A model generated the notes under the pieces. It worked only from the letters and a program-made list of their open reading frames with translations. It was not told where the DNA came from and searched no databases. 64,000 nt of DNA from Ornithinimicrobium humiphilum (lineage in GTDB: Bacteria; Actinomycetota; Actinomycetes; Actinomycetales; Dermatophilaceae), in NCBI RefSeq assembly GCF_006716885.1, contig NZ_VFPU01000001.1:1736001-1800000 (forward strand), written 5' to 3'. How positions within the stretch are numbered: position 1 is the first letter of the stretch; every line of letters begins with the position of its first letter. Made by a program: the position numbers and the translations under genes. Below are positions 7,200 through 37,606 of the stretch, piece by piece.

Positions 7200-8594
7200 G
7201 TGATCACCCCCCGCACGCCGTCCGGTGTCCTCGAGCTGCTCCCTCCCGAGCAGGTGGCCTTCCAGCGCATGCTGGACGTCATCCGTTCTGGCTACGAGCG
7301 CTTCGGCTTCCTGCCGATCGAGACCCCCGTCTTCGAGCGCTCGGACGTGCTGCTCACCAAGACCGGGGGCGAGACCGAGCGCCAGGTCTACTTCGTGCAG
7401 TCGACCGGCGCGCTGGAGAAGGCCCGCGAGGGTGGCGACGACGCGCTGCCGGAGATGGCGCTGCGCTTCGACCTGACCGTGCCGCTCGCGCGCTACGTCG
7501 CCGAGCACGAGCACCAGCTGACCTTCCCCTTCCGCCGCTACCAGATGCAGCGGGTCTACCGGGGCGAGCGCCCGCAGCGCGGCCGCTTCCGCGAGTTCTA
7601 CCAGTGCGACGTCGACATCATCGGCAAGGACGAGCTGTCGGTCCGCCACGACGCCGAGTGCCCGGCGATCATCCACGCGATCTTCACCGACCTGGCCATC
7701 GGTGACTTCACGATCCAGATCAACAACCGCAAGCTCCTGCGCGGCTTCTACGAGGACCTCGGCATCACCGACGCCGACCAGCAGGCGGCCGTCCTGCGCG
7801 AGGTCGACAAGCTCGACAAGCGCGGCCCCGACTACCTGCGCACCACGCTGACCGGTGAGGGCTTCGGCCTGTCCGACGCGGTCGTCGACGCGATCCTCGA
7901 CTTCGTCCAGGTGCGCTCGACCGGTCACGACGACGCGCTGGAGCAGCTGGCGCGGGTGGAGGCCGCCTCCTCCGGCAGCGCCTCGCTCTCCGAGGGCGTC
8001 GCCGAGCTGCGCGAGGTGCTCACCCTCGTCCGTGCCCTGGGCGTGCCGGAGAGCGACTACCGCCTCAACTTCTCCATCGCCCGCGGGCTCGACTACTACA
8101 CCGGCACGGTCTACGAGACGGTCCTCGACGACCACCCCGAGATCGGGTCGATCTGCTCCGGCGGTCGCTACGACAACCTGGCCGGCCAGTACACGAAGTC
8201 GAAGCTGCCCGGCGTCGGCATCTCGATCGGCCTGTCGCGACTCTTCTGGCAGCTGCGCGAGGCCGGCCTGCTCGAGGCGTCGACCAGCGAGTCGACGGTC
8301 CAGGTGCTCGTGCCGCAGGTCGACGCCGAGCTGCTCGACGACCAGCTCGCGCTGGCCTCCCAGCTGCGCCACGGCGGCATCAACACCGAGGCCGTCCTCG
8401 ACGGCGGCAAGCTCGCCAAGCAGCTCCGGTATGCCGATCGCGCGGGCATCCGCTTCGTCGCCCTGCTCGGGCGCCAGGAGGTCGCCGACGGCACGGTCAC
8501 GATCAAGGACCTGCGCCGCCAGGACCAGTTCACCGTGCCGCGCGCCGAGGTCGTCTCGGCGCTGAAGGTCGAGCTGGCGCAGCCGCTCGTCTGA
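7200..8594 (+). CDS. hisS: Histidyl-tRNA synthetase
   Basis: Class II aminoacyl-tRNA synthetase, 464 aa. Motif 2 is in [16 protein letters not shown], the histidine-binding segment is [13 protein letters not shown], and motif 3 is in SGGRYDNL...[12 protein letters not shown]. An anticodon-binding domain occupies about 365-455. It is of the longer type with [13 protein letters not shown] and [13 protein letters not shown], unlike the shorter enzyme of E. coli and M. tuberculosis; some actinobacteria share this form. The leaderless GTG start follows a -10 box by 6 nt. Confidence 0.95.
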
Positions 8595-13173: not shown

Positions 13174-13179
13174 TAGTGT
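13174..13179 (+). promoter_or_regulatory. hisR-G: Putative -10 box of the his operon
   Basis: TAGTGT, overlapping the left arm of the palindrome at 13176-13197. It predicts a start near 13186 and a leader of about 70 nt to the regulator gene. Confidence 0.5.
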
Positions 13180-13197
13180 AATAACGCGTTAACACAC
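13176..13197 (+). promoter_or_regulatory. Palindromic operator of the his operon
   Basis: Core TAACGCGTTA is a perfect 10-bp palindrome, flanked 2 nt out by GTGT on the left and ACAC on the right; 9 of 11 positions per arm are symmetric. It covers the likely -10 and transcription start, 58 bp before the TrpR-like gene. The position suits repression by that regulator with histidine as co-effector; this is inference. Confidence 0.65.
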
Positions 13198-13254: not shown

Positions 13255-13578
13255 GTGAAGCGTCGCAGCACCGTCGACCGCGCCGCCCTGGCCCGGCTCT
13301 GCACGGTCCTGGCGGGCCTCGACGACGCGGACTCCGTGCAGACCTTCCTCGAGGACCTCTGCACGCCGGCCGAGCTGGAGGCCCTCTCCGACCGCTGGGG
13401 CGTGGTCCCGCTGCTGGCCGCGGGGCTCTCCTACCGCCAGATCCACGAGCGCACCGGCGTCAGCGTGACGACCATCGGCCGCGTCGCCCGCCACCTCGAG
13501 GGCGGCGCCGGGGGCTACCGCGCCGCGCTGCAGGTGGCCTCGGCCGCGGGCGGGGAGCCCGAGCATCTGGTGCGCTGA
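13255..13578 (+). CDS. hisR: TrpR/YerC-family regulator, probable histidine operon repressor
   Basis: A 107-aa helical DNA-binding protein of the TrpR superfamily, YerC/YecD branch: FLEDLCTPAELEALSDRWGV followed by an HTH (GLSYRQIHERTGVSVTTIGRV). YerC-type proteins near his genes are proposed histidine-responsive repressors (HisR) in Firmicutes. Here it heads the his operon, 83 bp before hisG. The GTG is supported by GGAAGG 6 nt upstream, and hisG has a near-identical GGAAGG spacer. It probably binds the palindrome at 13176-13197. The symbol is by analogy. Confidence 0.8.
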   Translation: MKRRSTVDRAALARLCTVLAGLDDADSVQTFLEDLCTPAELEALSDRWGVVPLLAAGLSYRQIHERTGVSVTTIGRVARHLEGGAGGYRAALQVASAAGGEPEHLVR

Positions 13579-13661
13579 CCGCCTCCCCGCGACGGACCGT
13601 CGCACGCCCCCGAACCACCCGCCCCGGCCCCTCGGCCGGGCACCCGACCGGAAGGTCCTCC

Positions 13662-14570
13662 ATGACCCCGCCCGTCCAGCCGCGCGAACGCCTCCGTGTG
13701 GCGATCCAGAAGTCCGGCCGCCTCGGCGAGCCCGCCCGCGAGCTCCTCGCCTCGTGCGGGCTGACCTGGCGCGAGAGCCGCGACAAGCTCTTCCTCTACG
13801 GCGAGTCGCTGCCCGTCGACATCCTCCTGGTCCGCGACGACGACATCCCCGGCCTCATCGCCGACGGGGTCTGCGACCTCGGCATCGTCGGGCGCAACGT
13901 GCTCGTCGAGCACGGTCTGGAGCGCGAGGCGCAGGGTCGCCCGGCCGACCTCAACGAGTGGCGCCAGCTGGGCTGGGGCACCTGCCGCCTCGACATCGCC
14001 ATCCCGGAGTCCGAGGAGTGGACCGGCCCGCAGCAGCTGGAGGGGCTGCGCATCGCCACGTCCTACCCGCAGACCCTGGGCCGCTGGCTGCGCGACAACG
14101 GTGTGGACGCCGAGCCCGTGGTCCTCAACGGCTCCGTCGAGATCGCCCCGCGCCTGGGCCAGGCCGACGTCGTGTGCGATCTCGTCTCCACCGGCGGCAC
14201 GCTGCGCGCCAACCAGCTCCGCCCCGTCACCACGATCCTGCACTCCGAGGCCGTGATCGCCGGCCCGCGCGCCACCCTCGACGACGGCCGCCAGGAGATC
14301 GCCGACCTGCTCGTCCGCCGCCTCGATGGCGCCCTGCAGCTCAAGGAGTCGCGCCTGCTCATGCTCCGCGTCTCCCGTGACGGCCTGACCGACCTGCTGC
14401 CGCTGCTGCCCGAGGGCCACGAGCCGACCGTGATGCGTGTCGACGACCGTGACGAGGTGTCCGTGCAGGTGCTCGTGCACGGCTCCGTGTCCTGGTCCAA
14501 GCTGGAGCAGCTCAAGCACGCGGGTGCGCACAACCTCATGGTCCTGCCCGTCGAGGGGATGCTGGCATGA
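13662..14570 (+). CDS. hisG: ATP phosphoribosyltransferase, long form
   Basis: First committed step of histidine synthesis (ATP + PRPP to PR-ATP). It is 302 aa with a C-terminal regulatory domain (about 225-302), so feedback inhibition by histidine is expected. Sequence style is gammaproteobacterial: [51 protein letters not shown]. Typical actinobacterial HisG instead begins LRVAVPNKGxL. GGAAGG precedes the ATG. The stop overlaps hisD as ATGA. Confidence 0.95.
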
Positions 14571-15883
14571 ACGTCCTGACCTGGTCCGAGCTCTCCGAGA
14601 CCGAGCGCGCCGAGGCCCTGCGCCGGGCGACCGCCGCCGCGGGCCCGGAGGTGCGCGCCGGGGTCGCCGACATCCTCGAGCAGGTGCGCACCCGTGGCGA
14701 CGCCGCGCTGCGCGAGCTCACCGCCCGCCTCGACCGCGCCGAGCCGGCGGCCCTCGAGGTCTCCGTCGCCGACCGTGACGCCGCCGTCGCCGCCCTCGAC
14801 CCGCAGCTGCGCGAGGCGATCGCCGAGGCCGCCGCCCGCATCCGGGCCTTCCACGAGGCGGGTATGCAGTCCGCCTACGCCGTCGAGACCGCTCCTGGCG
14901 TGGTCTGCGAGCGCGTCGTCCGGCCGATCCGCCGCGTCGGTCTCTACGTGCCCGCCGGCTCCGCCCCGCTGCCCTCGACCGCCCTCATGCTCGGTGTCCC
15001 CGCCCAGCTGGCCGGCTGCCCCGAGGTCGTCCTCTGCACCCCTCCCCGCCCCGACGGCACCGCCGACCCCGCCGTCCTCGCGGCCGCGGCCGAGTGCGGC
15101 ATCACCCGCATCTTCGTCGTGGGCGGCGCGCAGGCGATCGCGGCGATGGCCTACGGCACCGGGTCGGTCCCGGCGTGCGACAAGCTCTTCGGCCCGGGCA
15201 ACGCCTGGGTGACCGAGGCCAAGCGCCAGGTGACCACCGCAGAGGGCGGCCCCGGTATCGACATGCCCGCCGGTCCCTCCGAGGTGCTGGTCATCGCGGA
15301 CGCGGGCGCGGACCCCGAGTTCGTGGCCGCCGACCTGCTGAGCCAGGCCGAGCACGGGCCCGACAGCCAGGTGCTGCTCCTCACCGACTCGCGTGAGCTC
15401 GCCGAGGCCGTCGCGGCCCAGGTCGAGGAGCAGGTCGAGAGCCTGCCCCGCGCCGACATCGCCCGCAAGGCCCTGGCCTCCAGCCGGCTGATCCTCACCC
15501 CCGACCTCGACACCGCCTTCGAGGTGTCCAACGACTACGCGCCGGAGCACCTCATCCTGGCGCTGCGCGACGCCGAGGAGCGTGTCGCCCAGGTCGACCG
15601 GGCCGGCTCGGTCTTCCTCGGCGACCACACGCCGGAGACCCTCGGTGACTACTGCTCGGGGACCAACCACGTGCTGCCCACCGCCGGCGCGGCCAGGTTC
15701 ACCGGCGGCGTCAACGTCTCCGCCTTCCAGATCGCGATGACCGTCCAGCGCGCCACCCCCGACGGGCTGGCCGCCGTCGGCCCGTGCGCGGTCGTGCTCT
15801 CCGAGGCCGAGCAGCTGCACGCCCACCAGCGGGCCGTCACCCGCCGCCTCGACCGGCTCGCCCCCACCCAGGACGCGTCGTGA
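14567..15883 (+). CDS. hisD: Histidinol dehydrogenase
   Basis: Catalyses the last two steps of the pathway, L-histidinol to L-histidine with 2 NAD+; 438 aa. Family segments visible: [59 protein letters not shown], the catalytic YAPEHL glutamate/histidine and SGTNHVLPT. It overlaps hisG by ATGA and hisC by GTGA. Compared with E. coli HisD from memory, the conserved blocks correspond closely. Confidence 0.96.
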
Positions 15884-16983
15884 GCGCCGCCGGACCCTCC
15901 GAGGGCTTCCCGACCGAGCTCGTCCGCGAGGACCTGCGCGGTTTCGCCGGCTACTCCTCGGCCCGGACCAGCGCCCCCGGCGTCCCGGCCCGCATCTGGC
16001 TCAACGCCAACGAGTCCGGCGACCCCAGCGCCGCCGACCCCGGGGGCGCCAGCCGTCGCTATCCCGACCCGCAGCCCGCCGAGCTGGTCGAGGCCTTCGC
16101 CGACCTCTGGGCCGTCACGCCCGACCGCGTCGTCGTCGGTCGCGGCAGCGACGAGCTCATCGAGCTGCTCGTGCGGGCGCTGTGCCGTCCGGGCGGTGAC
16201 GGGATCGTCATCTGCTCGCCGACCTTCGGCATGTACGAGGTCTCGGCCCGCCTCCACGGCGTGCCCGTCACCGACGTGCCCCAGCTCGACGACGGCCTGA
16301 CCTGGCGCGTCGACACCGCAGCGGTGGCCCGCGCGGCCCGGGAGAAGGGTGCCCGGGTGGTGTTCGTCTCCTCGCCCGGCAACCCGACCGCCAACGTCGT
16401 GCCGCTGCGCGAGATCGCCTCGCTGGCCGACGAGCTCGCCGACCAGGCGGTCGTCGTCGTCGACGAGGCCTACGGCGAGTACGCCGAGCAACGGTCGGCC
16501 GTCACGCTCCTGGAGGAGCACCCGACGCTCGTCGTGCTGCGGACCCTGTCCAAGGCGCACGGGCTCGCCGGTGCCCGCGTCGGGATCGCCCTGGCCCACC
16601 CCGAGCTGGCCACGGTGCTGCGCCGGGTGCAGGCGCCATACCCCGTGCCCGTCCCCGTCGCCCGCCTCGCGCTGGCGGCGCTCACCCCCGAGGCGCTGGC
16701 CGCCACGCGTGAGCGCGTCAACGCCACGCTGCGCCGGCGCGACCACCTCTGCCACCGGCTGCGCCACCTGGACGGCGTGCGCGCCGTCTACGACAGCGAG
16801 GCCAACTTCCTGCTGGTGCGGCACGACGACCCCGACGCGCTGCTCCGTACCCTCGCCTCTGCCGGGATCGTGGTGCGCGACGTGCGCCACCACCCCGGTC
16901 TCGCCGACGCCGTGCGCATCACGATCGGCACCGACGACGAGATGACCGCCCTCGACACCGCCCTGGGAGAGATCGACCGATGA
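15880..16983 (+). CDS. hisC: Histidinol-phosphate aminotransferase
   Basis: PLP aminotransferase (fold I) converting imidazole-acetol phosphate to histidinol phosphate; 367 aa. Visible features: [54 protein letters not shown], and the PLP lysine K225 in [14 protein letters not shown]. The GTG at 15880 overlaps the hisD stop (GTGA); upstream in-frame codons would extend into hisD. It overlaps hisB by ATGA. Confidence 0.95.
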
Positions 16984-18074
16984 GCCCCCGCCCCCTCTGC
17001 CTCGTCGACCGCGACGGCACGATCATCGCCGAGCCGGACGACTTCCAGGTCGACAGCCTGGCCAAGCTGCGACTCGTGGACGGCGTCATCCCCGCGCTGC
17101 TGCGCATCCAGGACGCCGGCTACGACCTGGTCATGGTGAGCAACCAGGACGGCCTGGGCACCGAGTCCTTCCCGCAGGAGGACTTCGACGCCCCGCACGA
17201 GCTGCTCCTGCAGATCCTCACCAGCCAGGGCATCCGCTTCCGCGAGGTCCTGATCGACCCGCACCACGCCGGTCCCGACGCCCCCTGGACCCGCAAGCCC
17301 GGCATCGGCATGGTCGTGCACCTGCTCAAGGACAAGGACGTCGACTGGGAGCGCAGCGTCATGGTCGGCGACCGCGAGACCGACCGCCAGTTCGGTGACA
17401 ACCTGGGGATCCGCACCTACCTGCTGCCCTCCGCGGCGAGCCCGGCCGAGGGCACCACCACCTGGGCGCAGATCGCGCACGAGCTGGCCGACCGTCCGCG
17501 CACCGCGCACGTCGACCGCAACACCGCCGAGACGCGGATCAGCGTCGACGTGGACCTGGACCAGCCGGGCGGGGCCGTCGCCGACACCGGCATCGGCTTC
17601 TTCGACCACATGCTCGACCAGCTCGCCAAGCACGGCGGCTTCTCGATGACGGTGCGCTGCTCCGGCGACCTCCACATCGACGAGCACCACACCATCGAGG
17701 ACGTCGCGCTGGCCGTCGGCGAGGCGATCCGCACCGCCCTCGGCGACAAGCGCGGCATCGGCCGCTACGGCTTCACGCTGCCCATGGACGAGGCCCGCGC
17801 CAGCGCGGCGATCGACCTGTCGGGCCGCCCGTTCTTCCGCTACGACGGCACCTTCTCCCGCGAGAACGTGGGCGAGTTCCCGACCGAGATGATCGAGCAC
17901 TTCTGGCGCTCCTTCGCCGACGCGCTGCGCTGCACCCTGCACCTGAGCGTCGACGGCGAGAACACCCACCACCAGATCGAGGTCGGCTTCAAGGCCGTGG
18001 CCCGCGCGCTGCGGATGGCGCTGGCCCGCCAGGGCGACTCCACCGAGCTGCCCTCCACCAAGGGCGTGCTGTGA
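16980..18074 (+). CDS. hisB: Bifunctional histidinol-phosphatase / imidazoleglycerol-phosphate dehydratase
   Basis: A 364-aa HisNB fusion. An N-terminal HAD phosphatase (1-165) has D10-R-D12-G-T, S54-N-Q-D, K106 and GDRETD; a C-terminal IGPD domain (about 175-364) has [38 protein letters not shown] and [11 protein letters not shown]. This fusion is characteristic of gammaproteobacteria; actinobacteria normally have a stand-alone IGPD. The zinc-loop cysteines of E. coli HisB-N are missing: residues 93-103 read [11 protein letters not shown]. It overlaps hisC (ATGA) and hisH (GTGA). Confidence 0.95.
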
Positions 18075-18679
18075 GCCTGCGCGTCGCGCTGGTCGACTCC
18101 GGTGGCACCAACATCGGGTCGGTCAGCTACGCCTTGGAGCGGCTCGGCGCCACCGCGCGCCTGACCGCCGACCGGGACGAGATCCTGGCTGCCGACCGGG
18201 TGATCCTGCCCGGTGTCGGCGCCGCCGGGGCGGGGATGCGGCGGCTCCGCGAGCTGGGCCTGAAGGAGGTCCTCCACGAGGTCCAGGTGCCCCTGCTCGG
18301 GGTGTGCCTGGGCATGCAGCTGCTCTTCGAGCGCTCGGCCGAGGACGGCGGCGTGGACACCCTGGGCCTGGTGCCCGGGGAGGTGCTCCCGATCAAGGCC
18401 GACTACGGTGTGCGGGTGCCGCACATGGGGTGGAACGCGCTCACGGAGATCGTCGACGACCCCTTGCTGGCCGGGATCGGTGAGGGGGAGCGGGCCTACT
18501 TCGTGCACTCCTACGCCGCACCGGCCGGTCCGCACACCCTGGCCGCGACCACCCACGGGGACACCTTCACCGCGGTGGTGCGCTCGGGGCTGCGGTGGGG
18601 CGCGCAGTTCCACCCGGAGCGTTCGGCGTCCGTCGGCGCCCGGCTGCTGCGAAACTTCCTCACGGAGGTCGGTCGATGA
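18071..18679 (+). CDS. hisH: Imidazole glycerol phosphate synthase, glutamine amidotransferase subunit
   Basis: Supplies ammonia to HisF; 202 aa, class I glutaminase. Triad: C79 in [10 protein letters not shown] and the H-x-E pair in [17 protein letters not shown] and YFVHSYA are also present. The GTG start overlaps the hisB stop. The stop overlaps an ATG of hisA (ATGA at 18676). Confidence 0.95.
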
Positions 18680-19473
18680 CGTCCGACCTGCCCGACCAGT
18701 CACGGAGTGATTCCACAGTGAGCACCACCCGACCGTTCACCGTCTACCCGGCGATCGACGTGCGGCACGGAGCCGTCGTCCGGCTCCTCAAGGGGGACTA
18801 CGACCAGGAGACGCAGTACTCCGACGACCCGGTGACGGTCGCCGAGTCCTACGCCCGCGCAGGCGCCCGCTGGCTGCACCTGGTCGACCTCGACGCCGCC
18901 CGCGAGGGCCGCTACACCCTCGACGGGATGCTGCAGCAGATCGTCGAGCGCACCGGGCTGATGGTCCAGACCGGCGGCGGAGTGCGCAGCGCCGACGACG
19001 TGCAGCGCCTCCTCGACGCCGGCGCCACCCGGGTCGTCATCGGCTCGCTGGCGGTGCGCGAGCCCGACACCGTCATCGGCCTCCTCGAGCGCTTCGGCCC
19101 TGAGAGCATCACGGTCGCCCTCGACACCCGCATCGGCGAGGACGGCGTCTGGCGGCTCCCGGTCGACGGGTGGACCGGCGACTCCGACCTCGACCTCATC
19201 ACCTGCCTGCACCGCTACGACAGCTCGGGCCTGCGGCACGTGCTGACCACCGACATCGGGCGCGACGGCACGCTCGGCGGCCCGAACTTCCACCTCTACA
19301 CCGCGCTGACCCGGTCGGCCCCCCAGCTGCAGGTCCAGGCCTCCGGCGGGGCCCGCAACGTCGACGACGTGCGCGCGGCCCGCCGCACCGGCTGCGCGGG
19401 GATCATCCTCGGCAAGGCCCTGCTCGAGGGCCGCCTCACCGTGACCGACGCCATCCAGGAGGAGGGCCTGTGA
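18676..19473 (+). CDS. hisA: ProFAR isomerase HisA (not PriA-like)
   Basis: TIM-barrel isomerase converting ProFAR to PRFAR; 265 aa from the ATG overlapping the hisH stop, or 251 aa from the GTG at 18718, which has GGAG about 10 nt upstream. Catalytic aspartates: D28 in YPAIDVRHG and the one in [29 protein letters not shown] and GKALLEG are present. Blocks such as [11 protein letters not shown] resemble E. coli HisA. Actinobacteria normally carry PriA, which also does the TrpF reaction; this protein lacks that appearance. Confidence 0.93.
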
Positions 19474-20261
19474 CCCTGGCCCGACGCATCATCCCCTGCC
19501 TCGACGTGCGCGACGGGCGGGTTGTCAAGGGCACCCGCTTCCGCGACCACGTCGACATGGGCGACATCGTCGAGCTCGCGAAGCGCTACGCCCGGGAGGG
19601 TGCCGACGAGCTCGTCTTCTACGACATCACCGCCAGCCCCGAGGGCCGCGCGGTCGACGTCGACTGGGTCACCCGCGTGGCCCGCGCGATCGACATCCCG
19701 TTCTGCGTGGCCGGCGGCATCCGCAGCGTGGAGGCGGCCCGCGCCGTGCTGCACGCCGGTGCCGACAAGATCTCGGTCAACACCCCCGCGACCCAGCGCC
19801 CCGAGCTCGTCTCCGAGCTGGCCGAGGCCTTCGGCGTGCAGTGCGTCGTCGTGGGCGTCGACAGCCTGCGGGACGAGGACGGGGTCTGGCGCATCCGGCA
19901 GTTCACCGGCAGCCCCGACGCCACCCGTGCGCTGCCCGTGACCACGCTGGACTGGGTCCGGCACGTGCAGGAGCTCGGTGCCGGCGAGATCGTCCTCAAC
20001 TGCATGGGGTCGGACGGGGTCCGTGAGGGCTACGACCTCCAGCAGCTGCACGCGGTCCGGCAGGTATGCCGTGTCCCCCTGATCGCGTCCGGCGGCGCCG
20101 GCACCGCCGGGCACTTCGTCGAGGTCTTCCGCGAGGCCGACGTCGACGGCGCCCTGGCCGCCACCGTCTTCCACAACGGCTCGATCGAGATCCCGGCGCT
20201 CAAGCGGCAGCTCGCCGAGGCCGGGCTGGTCGTCCGCACCGTCCCGGAGCCGGTCCGATGA
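19470..20261 (+). CDS. hisF: Imidazole glycerol phosphate synthase, cyclase subunit
   Basis: Cyclase partner of HisH producing imidazole glycerol phosphate and AICAR; 263 aa TIM barrel. D12 in [11 protein letters not shown] and the aspartate in [10 protein letters not shown] are the catalytic pair; [37 protein letters not shown] and ASGGAGT are family blocks. GTG start overlaps hisA (GTGA); stop overlaps hisIE (ATGA). Confidence 0.96.
20064..20072 (+). repeat. Coding copy of the 9-mer GTATGCCGT (inside hisF)
   Basis: Forward-strand exact copy within hisF, one of nine in the window. Confidence 0.5.
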
Positions 20262-20884
20262 GCGTCCCGCTGCTGCCCGAGGGCACCGCCGTCGACGACG
20301 TCGACTTCGCCAAGACCGGGGGACTGGTGCCCGGGGTCGTCCAGGACGCCCGCACCCGCCAGGTGCTCATGGTCGGCTTCCTCGACCGCGCAGCCCTGGA
20401 GACCACCCTGGGCACCGGTCTGGCGACCTTCTTCTCCCGCTCCCGCGGCACCAGCTGGACGAAGGGAGAGACAAGCGGCAACACCCTGGCGGTGGAGCGG
20501 GTCGAGGTCGACTGCGACCGCGACACGCTGCTGATCCACGCCGTGCCCGCCGGGCCGACCTGCCACACCGGCGACCGCACCTGCTTCGGGCCCGGAGCGG
20601 TCGAGGGCTCCTTCGTGCACGAGCTCGACGACGTCGTGCGGGTGCGCGACCTCGAGCGGCCCGAGGGGTCCTACACGACCCTCCTCCTCTCCGGCGAACC
20701 GCGCCGCGTCGCCCAGAAGGTGGGGGAGGAGGGCGTCGAGACCGCCCTCGCCGCCGTCGCCCAGGGCGACGAGGAGCTGCTCGGGGAGGCCGCCGACCTC
20801 GTCTACCACCTGCTCGTCCTGCTGCGGACCCGTGGCCTCGGGATCGCCGACGTGGAGCGGGTGCTGCGCGAGCGCCACGGCTGA
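20258..20884 (+). CDS. hisIE: Bifunctional PR-AMP cyclohydrolase / PR-ATP pyrophosphohydrolase
   Basis: Catalyses steps 2 and 3 of the pathway in one 208-aa chain. The N-terminal HisI domain (about 1-120) has [16 protein letters not shown] and metal-binding [11 protein letters not shown]; the C-terminal HisE domain (about 120-208) has [17 protein letters not shown] and [13 protein letters not shown]. Most actinobacteria have separate hisI and hisE, with hisE beside hisG, so this fused form is another gammaproteobacterial trait. Last gene of the operon. Confidence 0.95.
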
Positions 20885-23203: not shown

Positions 23204-24178
23204 ATGTCCGCACCCAGTCCCGAACCGCCGCGCCGCACGGCCCTGCGCCGCGCCCGCGACGGCTGGCTCGACCACCTGCGGGTGGAGCGAGGACGCTCCG
23301 AGCACACCCTGAAGGCCTACCAGCGCGACACCGAGCGCTACCTGACCTTCCTCGAGGGTCTCGGCGTCACGGACCCGGAGGACGTCGCGGAGCGCCACGT
23401 GACCGACTTCCTCGCCGCCCTGCGTCGTGGCAACGACGAGCACCCGCCCCTGGCGGCGACGTCCGCGGCACGCGCCGTCGTCGCCGTCCGCGGCCTGCAC
23501 CGGTTCCTGACCGTCGAGGGCGAGGTGGAGGCGGACCCCGCCCGGGAGGTCCAGCCTCCGGCTCCTCCACGGCGGCTGCCCAAGGCGCTGTCGGTCGACG
23601 ACGTGGGCCGGCTGCTGCAGGCCGCGTCCCTGGGTGACACCCCCGCCGCGCTGCGCGACCGCGCGCTGCTGGAGCTGCTCTACGGGTCGGGGGCGCGGGT
23701 GAGCGAAGCGATCGGGCTGGACCTGGACGACCTGGAGCTGGGGAGGGGCGACGACGGCACCGGCGGGGTCGTGCGGCTCTTCGGCAAGGGCGGCAAGGAG
23801 CGCATCGTGCCGCTCGGCCGCTACGCCCGGGACGCCCTCGACGCCTGGGTCGTGCGGGGCCGTCCGGCCCTGGCGCGCGCCGGCACCGGCACGCCCGCGG
23901 TCTTCGTCAACGTCCGCGGCGGCCGGCTGTCGCGCCAGTCGGCCTGGACCGCGATCCGCGCCGCTGCCGAGCGGGCCGGCCTCCGGGCCGACGTCTCACC
24001 GCACACCCTCCGGCACTCCTTCGCCACCCACCTGCTCGACGGAGGAGCGGACGTGCGCGTGGTCCAGGAGCTGCTCGGCCACGCGTCGGTCACCACCACG
24101 CAGATCTACACCCACGTCTCGACCCAGCACCTGCGCGAGGTCTACGCCCAGGCGCACCCGCGCGCCCGGGCCCGCTGA
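23204..24178 (+). CDS. xerD: Site-specific tyrosine recombinase XerD
   Basis: Chromosome dimer resolution recombinase acting at dif with XerC and FtsK; 324 aa. N-terminal SAM-like core-binding domain (about 18-105) and C-terminal catalytic domain with R165, K195 (FGKGGKER), H267-x-x-R270 (SPHTLRHSF), H293 (LLGHASV) and nucleophile Y302 (QIYTHVS). The spacing H-R-H-Y matches E. coli XerD. Position ahead of parA-scpAB is the standard actinobacterial order, so this is housekeeping rather than phage-derived. Confidence 0.95.
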
Positions 24179-37484: not shown

Positions 37485-37502
37485 TGACGGTGCCGTCGAG
37501 GC

Positions 37503-37606
37503 CGCGCGGGAGAGTCCTCGCCAGGTTTCGGTGAGGCGCCGAAGGGGCAAACTCCCCGCCAAGCTCTCAGGCGCCAGGACCGTGCGGATCAGGCAACTCT
37601 GAAGGG
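37503..37606 (+). ncRNA. Glycine riboswitch (single aptamer)
   Basis: Conserved glycine-aptamer elements appear in order: GCGGGAGAG (37506-37514), GGCGCCGAAGGGGCAA (about 37535-37550), CAAGCTCTCAGGCGCC (37560-37575), AGGAC and a closing CTCTGAAGG. One aptamer only; no second copy follows. It lies 63 bp upstream of gcvP and would switch it on when glycine is high. A short GGGG-AGCG-CCCC hairpin at about 37631-37642 may be part of the expression platform. Confidence 0.9.

Follow-up and report, generated by a model that had tools for sequence, protein, structure and literature searches.

A Xanthomonadales-type histidine operon and a retained PriA in Ornithinimicrobium humiphilum and its relatives

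We analysed a 64,000-nucleotide stretch of the Ornithinimicrobium humiphilum genome (contig NZ_VFPU01000001.1, positions 1,736,001 to 1,800,000; hereafter the window), in which nine open genes lie on the same strand between positions 13255 and 20884: a TrpR-family gene followed by hisG, hisD, hisC, hisNB, hisH, hisA, hisF and hisIE. We consider it very probable that this operon is of Xanthomonadales type, was acquired by transfer and replaced the native histidine pathway, whichever of the two events came first. The fuller history, in which the operon was gained first and en bloc, the native his genes were then lost, and the native bifunctional enzyme PriA became a TrpF-only enzyme, we hold to be likely, with less assurance.

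Operon, regulator and donor group

The order G-D-C-NB-H-A-F-IE, together with HisNB and HisIE fusions, is typical of Gammaproteobacteria, and the operon in the window has both this order and the two fusions. The eight enzyme genes overlap by 4 bp at all seven junctions, with ATGA or GTGA as the shared letters. A first-pass annotation of the window, made from the letters alone, had described this order, the overlaps, the fused HisNB and HisIE and a long-form HisG, and the coordinates and NCBIfam models bore it out on each count (Table 1). The span proposed there began at a real gene start, 13255; the gene itself had gone unnamed, and we find that it encodes a TrpR-related protein of the YerC/YecD kind.

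Such proteins have been named HisR; according to the available text of the study concerned, hisR heads the his operon in most Proteobacteria that have it, including Xanthomonadales, its palindromic motif has been described, and actinobacterial HisR occurs in Coriobacteriales and Eggerthellales, distant from his genes (PMC9413887). The window has the layout of the proteobacterial HisR regulon, with the TrpR-family gene first and a TGTA..TACA-type palindrome upstream, and the hisR product is 73% identical to a Rhodanobacteraceae homologue. The predicted operator, TGTAATAACGCGTTAACACA, fits 12 of the 14 specified positions of the proteobacterial motif in PMC9413887 by hand count. The operator pattern, which had been relaxed by one position once the site was known, occurs once in the window and in none of 100 shuffles. 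Best sites upstream of hisR scored 8-10 in all 12 other loci of this operon type in the host group (clade loci) and 10-12 in the ten Xanthomonadales loci examined; as a control, the best scores upstream of hisG in the same loci were 4-7. We infer from these sequence comparisons that the operon is regulated by the imported HisR at the predicted operator. Many clade operators (L168-L177, L001, L002) also have, 8 bp before the main palindrome, an overlapping extra half-site of the CGTGTTAGCGT type. A consensus scan found no promoter or terminator.

The distribution of the operon is narrow. When the HisNB fusion was scanned against GTDB species representatives, a set from which the window's own genome was possibly left out, the nearest named matches among the best 80 of 590 candidates were Ornithinimicrobium sp. 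CNJ-824 (88%) and a Serinicoccus metagenome-assembled genome (MAG; 78%), followed by Xanthomonadales at about 60%. From these 80 loci, two clade and 68 gammaproteobacterial loci were used and 10 short or redundant ones were dropped. Across 149 genomes of the family (53 genera), full-length HisNB was found in 11, comprising nine of nine in the window's genus (g1) and two of two in a second genus (g9), all with E values of 7.6e-155 or better; the two named clade loci possibly duplicate genomes among these 11. For 134 of the 149 the best match was to the imidazoleglycerol-phosphate dehydratase (IGPD) half, with E values of 1.3e-49 or weaker, and four had no match. Among 396 Actinomycetota genomes sampled across the phylum, the window's own gave the only full-length match, the next (E 1.4e-60) being to the IGPD half. 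The outcome that the first-pass annotation had named as telling against acquisition, an arrangement ancestral in the order, is contrary to this confinement, in the sample, to the sister genera g1 and g9.

The host is actinobacterial, and other sampled family members carry native-type his genes. For the vertical genes glnA, glnE, infC, trpC, trpB and trpA, a branch separates the 11 operon-bearers from nine relatives with native loci (natives; one native row was omitted as too empty), with a Shimodaira-Hasegawa-like approximate likelihood ratio test (SH-aLRT) support of 99. The distribution and this branch are most simply explained by one acquisition and subsequent inheritance. That the arrangement is family-wide and was inherited vertically, or that an assembly is contaminated, would be in keeping with the host-like base composition: GC is 73.7% in the operon and 73.1% in the window, and GC at third codon positions is 94.1-98.6 in the operon genes and 96.4 +/- 1.6 in 50 other called genes, the agreement with neighbouring genes already reported in the first-pass annotation. 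Either is nevertheless extremely improbable in our view, given that the operon occurs in eleven genomes, four of them single-contig assemblies (G119, G127, G133, G057), with common host flanks such as hisS, and that for those 134 family genomes the best match covers the IGPD half alone.

The sequences point to Xanthomonadales as the donor group. Over the eight proteins, the clade has a mean identity of 57.6% to Xanthomonadales (13 rows), 46.7% to other Gammaproteobacteria (15 rows) and 38.5% to natives (10 rows); Xanthomonadales and natives share 38.4%, and by this measure the clade proteins are as far from the natives as the Xanthomonadales proteins are. HisG is 62% identical to that of Pseudoxanthomonas (best native 32.7%), which agrees with a resemblance to Xanthomonas HisG noted in the first-pass annotation. 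The corresponding figures are at most 67% to Xanthomonadales for HisD (best native 41.9%), 54% to Arenimonas for HisC (36.7%) and 74% to Rhodanobacter for HisF (48.4%). For every enzyme and for hisR, the eight best non-clade matches in the 68 gammaproteobacterial loci were all from Xanthomonadales.

A further character lies in the HisN domain, where a C-P-H...C-C cluster binds zinc. In the window, the N-terminal domain of HisNB has a DRDGT motif and a loop without the cluster, as in Xanthomonadales. The cluster is missing from 13 of 13 clade rows and from the 13 Xanthomonadales rows printed (of 15), and is present in the seven other gammaproteobacterial rows printed (of 53). This character needs no root, and it agrees with a Xanthomonadales placement. 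In eight clade rows the same loop is longer by one inserted residue.

For the trees, the alignment had to cover more than 60% of the query for a gene to count, or 50% in clade loci; the concatenation kept 51 of 52 rows (more than 55% filled), and the first concatenated tree used 41 of the 51. In a tree without natives (29 of the 51 rows, 2401 columns), prepared by removing the 10 natives, any near-copies, rows that were long or gappy, and the three Xanthomonadales/Lysobacterales MAGs L012, L016 and L025, the clade was sister to Lysobacteraceae-type rows (98), with Rhodanobacteraceae outside (99). A grouping of the ten Xanthomonadales rows without the clade was rejected by the approximately unbiased (AU) test (p 0.0042). 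L016 and L025 fell outside the main Xanthomonadales group in the 41-row tree and were counted as other Gammaproteobacteria in the identities above. The imported HisA falls among Xanthomonadales HisA in its tree.

Several results weigh against this placement. With natives as the outgroup, the concatenation permits the natives on the stem of the clade (p 0.217). Under a simpler model, that position was rejected for hisA alone (p 0.028) and stood unrejected for hisG, hisD, hisC, hisB, hisH and hisI (p 0.16-0.54), while the hisF tree joins clade and natives (SH-aLRT 95.5). FastTree gave no clear placement of hisB, hisF or hisI, and the closest sister differs between trees (Arenimonas, other Lysobacteraceae rows or a Rhodanobacteraceae MAG). 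A union of the clade with core Xanthomonadales was recovered for hisG and hisA and was unrejected for the other six genes (p 0.16-0.66). We read the single-gene root results as reflecting the uncertain position of a very distant root, and claims from single genes are weakened to that extent. The protein-by-protein phylogeny proposed as a check in the first-pass annotation thus succeeds in part: the concatenation nests the clade in Xanthomonadales, but single genes leave the root unsettled and hisF roots with the natives. As to direction, we favour transfer into the host because the fused arrangement is general in gammaproteobacterial loci and limited to two genera in the actinobacterial samples.

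The differing sisters of the single-gene trees would also be expected if the genes had arrived separately or from several donors and been assembled in the host. We think this very unlikely, as the order, fusions, overlaps, hisR and operator are all in place and identity points to one donor group for nine genes.

Native his loci and the retained PriA

In ten native relatives, the first his locus reads hisD-hisC-hisB-(hyp)-hisH-priA-sseB, with hyp in nine of the ten, glnE upstream in seven and infC downstream in eight of the stretches. At the same place all 11 operon-bearers have glnE-hyp-priA-sseB-...-infC; hisD, hisC, hisB and hisH, present in all ten natives, are missing. The second native locus reads hisE-hisG-PH-kinase-hisF-(TIGR03085)-(ABC-ABC)-hisI-trpE-...-trpC-trpB-trpA, where bracketed genes occur in some natives; it is split into two pieces in one native, and trpCBA is not reached in every stretch. 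There, hisG, hisF, hisI and trpE were found in all ten natives and hisE in nine (one contig begins at hisG). The 11 operon-bearers keep PH, TIGR03085, the ABC pair, trpC, trpB and trpA in order, and lack hisE, hisG, hisF, hisI and trpE. Should the native arrangement be the ancestral one, five or more deletions are needed, all of which spared the intervening genes. In the window's genome there are 4-bp overlaps at hyp-priA, priA-sseB, pnuC-PH and ABC2-trpMem, and the glnE-hyp gap is 9 bp; gene starts at these loci come from a simple purpose-made caller. A conserved protein of about 210 aa without an NCBIfam match (L147:10170-10811; between hisB and hisH in natives) occurs in nine of ten natives and is retained after the his loss.

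In the window's genome (G000; 3.44 Mb, 100% complete), HisG, IGPD and phosphoribosyl-AMP cyclohydrolase (PRA-CH) are each single and lie inside the operon, and HisF is single. A genome-wide search found HisG and PRA-CH to be single and operon-located in 11 of 11 operon-bearing genomes, each of which also has one HisB match. Native hisD, hisC, hisH and hisE are missing at the two ancestral loci in all 11, the places at which they were sought, no genome-wide search having been made for them. The first-pass annotation had supposed that the acquired operon replaced the native pathway, and had suggested a search for native hisE, hisG, monofunctional hisB and priA. The distribution, the tree and the missing native genes uphold the replacement, with HisG single and HisB matched once per genome; the exception is priA, which is retained at the old his locus in 11 of 11 operon-bearers.

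TrpC is present in all 11 genomes and no TrpF-family gene was found in any of them (six of the 149 family genomes have one). Because a TrpF-family gene is lacking, PriA is the candidate TrpF, and the retained protein may perform that step. In PriA, according to the available text of PMC9088769, Arg85 and Thr105 hold the far phosphate of N'-[(5'-phosphoribosyl)formimino]-5-aminoimidazole-4-carboxamide ribonucleotide (ProFAR), Trp145 stacks on it, and Arg143 faces phosphoribosylanthranilate. The retained PriAs have Arg85, Gly104, Thr105, Trp145 and Thr170 replaced and Asp11, Ser81, Asp130, Arg143 and Asp175 unchanged in 11 of 11; native PriAs have Arg85, Gly104, Thr105, Trp145, Thr170 and Arg143 unchanged in 10 of 10. 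The window genome's PriA has D, A, S and A at positions 85, 105, 145 and 170, and the residues replacing Arg85 and Trp145 vary among the retained proteins. A Thr105-to-Ser change alone says little, because Ser is also the residue of the imported HisA at this position (13 of 13). Loop 1 is six residues shorter in nine of the 11, and five shorter in the two from g9, than in the Mycobacterium tuberculosis enzyme and the two natives printed. The retained PriA has evolved fast: its identity is 58.0% within g1 versus 82.2% among natives, and nine other genes show the reverse. The window genome's PriA (175.2 bits) and the imported HisA (169.4 bits), the two proteins scored, are both under the cut-off of 306.45 for the bifunctional model TIGR01919. 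The g9 PriAs (L156, L157) are far more divergent, with a stem of 1.44, and have Ser for Asp171.

A HisA/PriA pair has been reported in Ornithinimicrobium and Serinicoccus by Rosas-Becerra et al. 2026 (PMC13055916), who named the PriA SubTrpF2 and showed that the O. murale HisA complements only hisA and PriA only trpF. The proteins studied here are of the same kind: PriA stands beside HisA, TrpF is absent, Asp11 and Asp175 are kept, and residues 85, 105, 145 and 170 are changed in 11 of 11. Our account differs on the origin, which is ascribed there to a hisA duplication within the family. For a duplication speak the co-occurrence of HisA and PriA in 100% of the family genomes of that study and their separation into two well-supported clades; to its authors' knowledge the locus was previously unreported. 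We find this origin scarcely credible. In a HisA/PriA tree that took 25 of 67 gammaproteobacterial HisA rows, SubTrpF joins native PriA with support of 100/100, its union with the clade HisA is rejected by the AU test (log-likelihood difference 96.7, p 1.3e-60), and the priA locus is the ancestral his locus minus four genes in 11 of 11. These data argue that PriA, at the old his locus, is the vertically inherited copy and HisA the incomer, and that SubTrpF2 is a native PriA retained after import of a his operon.

Arg19 to Gln is among the SubTrpF2 changes listed in PMC13055916. We found Gln19 in 10 of 10 native PriAs; for nine of these the genome gave no TrpF-family match. Since these proteins are encoded in a native his operon and are presumably bifunctional, Gln19 alone cannot explain the loss of HisA activity. 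The published origin of SubTrpF2 would thus need revision, and this one explanatory residue is called into question.

All 11 operon-bearers lack native trpE upstream of trpCBA, and the best TrpE-type matches in clade genomes are 33-40% identical. A TrpE-TrpG-like fusion of 622-657 aa was seen in five of five clade genomes inspected by eye (L301:1503-3374, which is in G000:C2:97501-103000; L302, L303, L304, L305). In the window's genome it matches anthranilate synthase models below their cut-offs, and it probably replaces the lost native trpE. The C2 region was rejected as the trp locus, trpC being at C1:2003495-2004250, and a weak His_biosynth match at C2:106607 lies inside a gene named by eye as epimerase-like.

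Order of events and known systems

In the history we favour, the common ancestor of the Ornithinimicrobium/Serinicoccus group would have gained one piece comprising the operator, hisR and hisGDC-NB-HAF-IE, which would have brought the whole histidine pathway, a dedicated HisA among its enzymes. Deletions at five places in two loci would then have removed the native his genes, by now redundant, and left the intervening genes where they were. With no trpF in these genomes, PriA would have been indispensable for its second role, in the tryptophan pathway; once relieved of its part in histidine synthesis, it would have lost its ProFAR-binding residues and become TrpF-only at its old address. We infer a single en bloc transfer with gain preceding loss, an order preferred because it requires no auxotrophic stage. 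Against it stands that no genome with both the imported and the native pathway was seen in the sample.

The opposite order leads to the same end state: a histidine-auxotrophic ancestor in which PriA drifted to TrpF-only, as in Actinomycetaceae, and a later operon import that restored the pathway. Two genomes of genus g15, G014 and G062, each 100% complete and about 2.6 Mb in size, gave no match to HisB or PriA and do carry a TrpF-family gene, the reverse of what the window's clade shows, so the his pathway can be lost in this family, and SubTrpF arising through gene loss is known from the available text of PMC5404923. We regard loss before gain as possible but rather unlikely, as the operon is in all 11 sampled genomes, no auxotrophic member of the group was seen, and an extra auxotrophic stage is needed. 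More speculatively, the arrival of an operon with its own repressor might have resolved, in nature, the adaptive conflict of a bifunctional enzyme: with ProFAR turnover under imported HisR control, the ProFAR activity of a separately expressed native PriA might have become harmful and not merely superfluous, its loss then being selected. The same episode might have removed hisI-trpE and moved anthranilate synthesis to the TrpE-TrpG-like fusion, so that both pathways were rebuilt.

The Xanthomonadales hisR-hisGDC(NB)HAF(IE) operon shares with that of the clade both fusions, the TrpR-family first gene, the operator form and the closest sequences. The clade differs in its high-GC actinobacterial host, lower operator scores, many extra half-sites and, in eight rows, the HisN-loop insertion. 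In the SubHisA case of Corynebacterium, horizontal transfer reportedly freed PriA from one job and PriA kept the HisA job; here, in a mirror image that would complete the pair, it was the histidine pathway that came in from outside and the TrpF job that stayed with PriA. The SubTrpF of Actinomycetaceae is likewise a PriA that lost the ProFAR isomerase function and is altered at the positions equivalent to Arg85 and Trp145, but it is tied in the available text to loss of the his pathway, which here is present and imported (PMC5404923).

Operon transfer, displacement of native genes and PriA subfunctionalisation are each known kinds of event; what is new is their combination, in which a whole his unit with its switch came in, the native his genes went out and the dual enzyme was kept and specialised. 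We found no account of a his-operon transfer in the Ornithinimicrobium/Serinicoccus group among the open-licence PMC papers listed, and the main text of PMC13055916 describes none: xenolog, Xanthomonas, gammaproteobacteria and Proteobacteria have no occurrences in it, and 'horizontal' has two, in the introduction and the references. The group would represent a natural experiment in enzyme evolution, in which native his genes were replaced across phyla and an irreplaceable bifunctional enzyme was specialised, and the 11 genomes with their native outgroups could be used to study the timing and path of subfunctionalisation.

Features of the window

Table 1. Positions in the window of the operon, its predicted operator and the conserved flanking genes
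Feature	Position	Strand	Evidence
hisS, conserved upstream flank of the operon in the clade	7200..8594	+	TIGR00442 401.5 bits
Predicted HisR operator	13177..13196	+	11/12 positions of simplified palindrome
hisR, YerC/YecD TrpR-family regulator, 107 aa, first gene of the imported unit	13255..13578	+	TIGR02531 53.9 bits (cut-off 42.2); PF01371 84.3 bits
hisG, ATP phosphoribosyltransferase, long form, 302 aa	13662..14570	+	TIGR00070 and TIGR03455 above cut-off
hisD, histidinol dehydrogenase	14567..15883	+	TIGR00069 523 bits
hisC, histidinol-phosphate aminotransferase	15880..16983	+	TIGR01141 321.6 bits, above cut-off
hisNB fusion, HAD-type histidinol-phosphatase and imidazoleglycerol-phosphate dehydratase, 364 aa	16980..18074	+	NF003937 (NCBIfam, bifunctional HisB) 515.7 bits (cut-off 443)
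hisH, glutaminase subunit of imidazole glycerol phosphate synthase	18071..18679	+	TIGR01855 209.1 bits; 63% to Dokdonella
hisA, ProFAR isomerase, imported, monofunctional type	18676..19473	+	TIGR00007 245.6 bits (cut-off 228.95)
hisF, cyclase subunit of imidazole glycerol phosphate synthase	19470..20261	+	TIGR00735 331.7 bits
hisIE fusion, PRA-CH and phosphoribosyl-ATP pyrophosphohydrolase (PRA-PH), 208 aa	20258..20884	+	NF002747 (NCBIfam, bifunctional HisIE) 235.4 bits (cut-off 187)
Recombinase gene, conserved downstream flank	23282..24178	+	10/12 other clade loci, 66-83%; missing from both g9 loci

The hisS flank is present in all 12 other clade loci at 65-89% identity. The recombinase gene on the other side is one that we take to be xerD-like. 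Elsewhere in the window, a glycine riboswitch aptamer was detected at 37497-37592 (65.1 bits).

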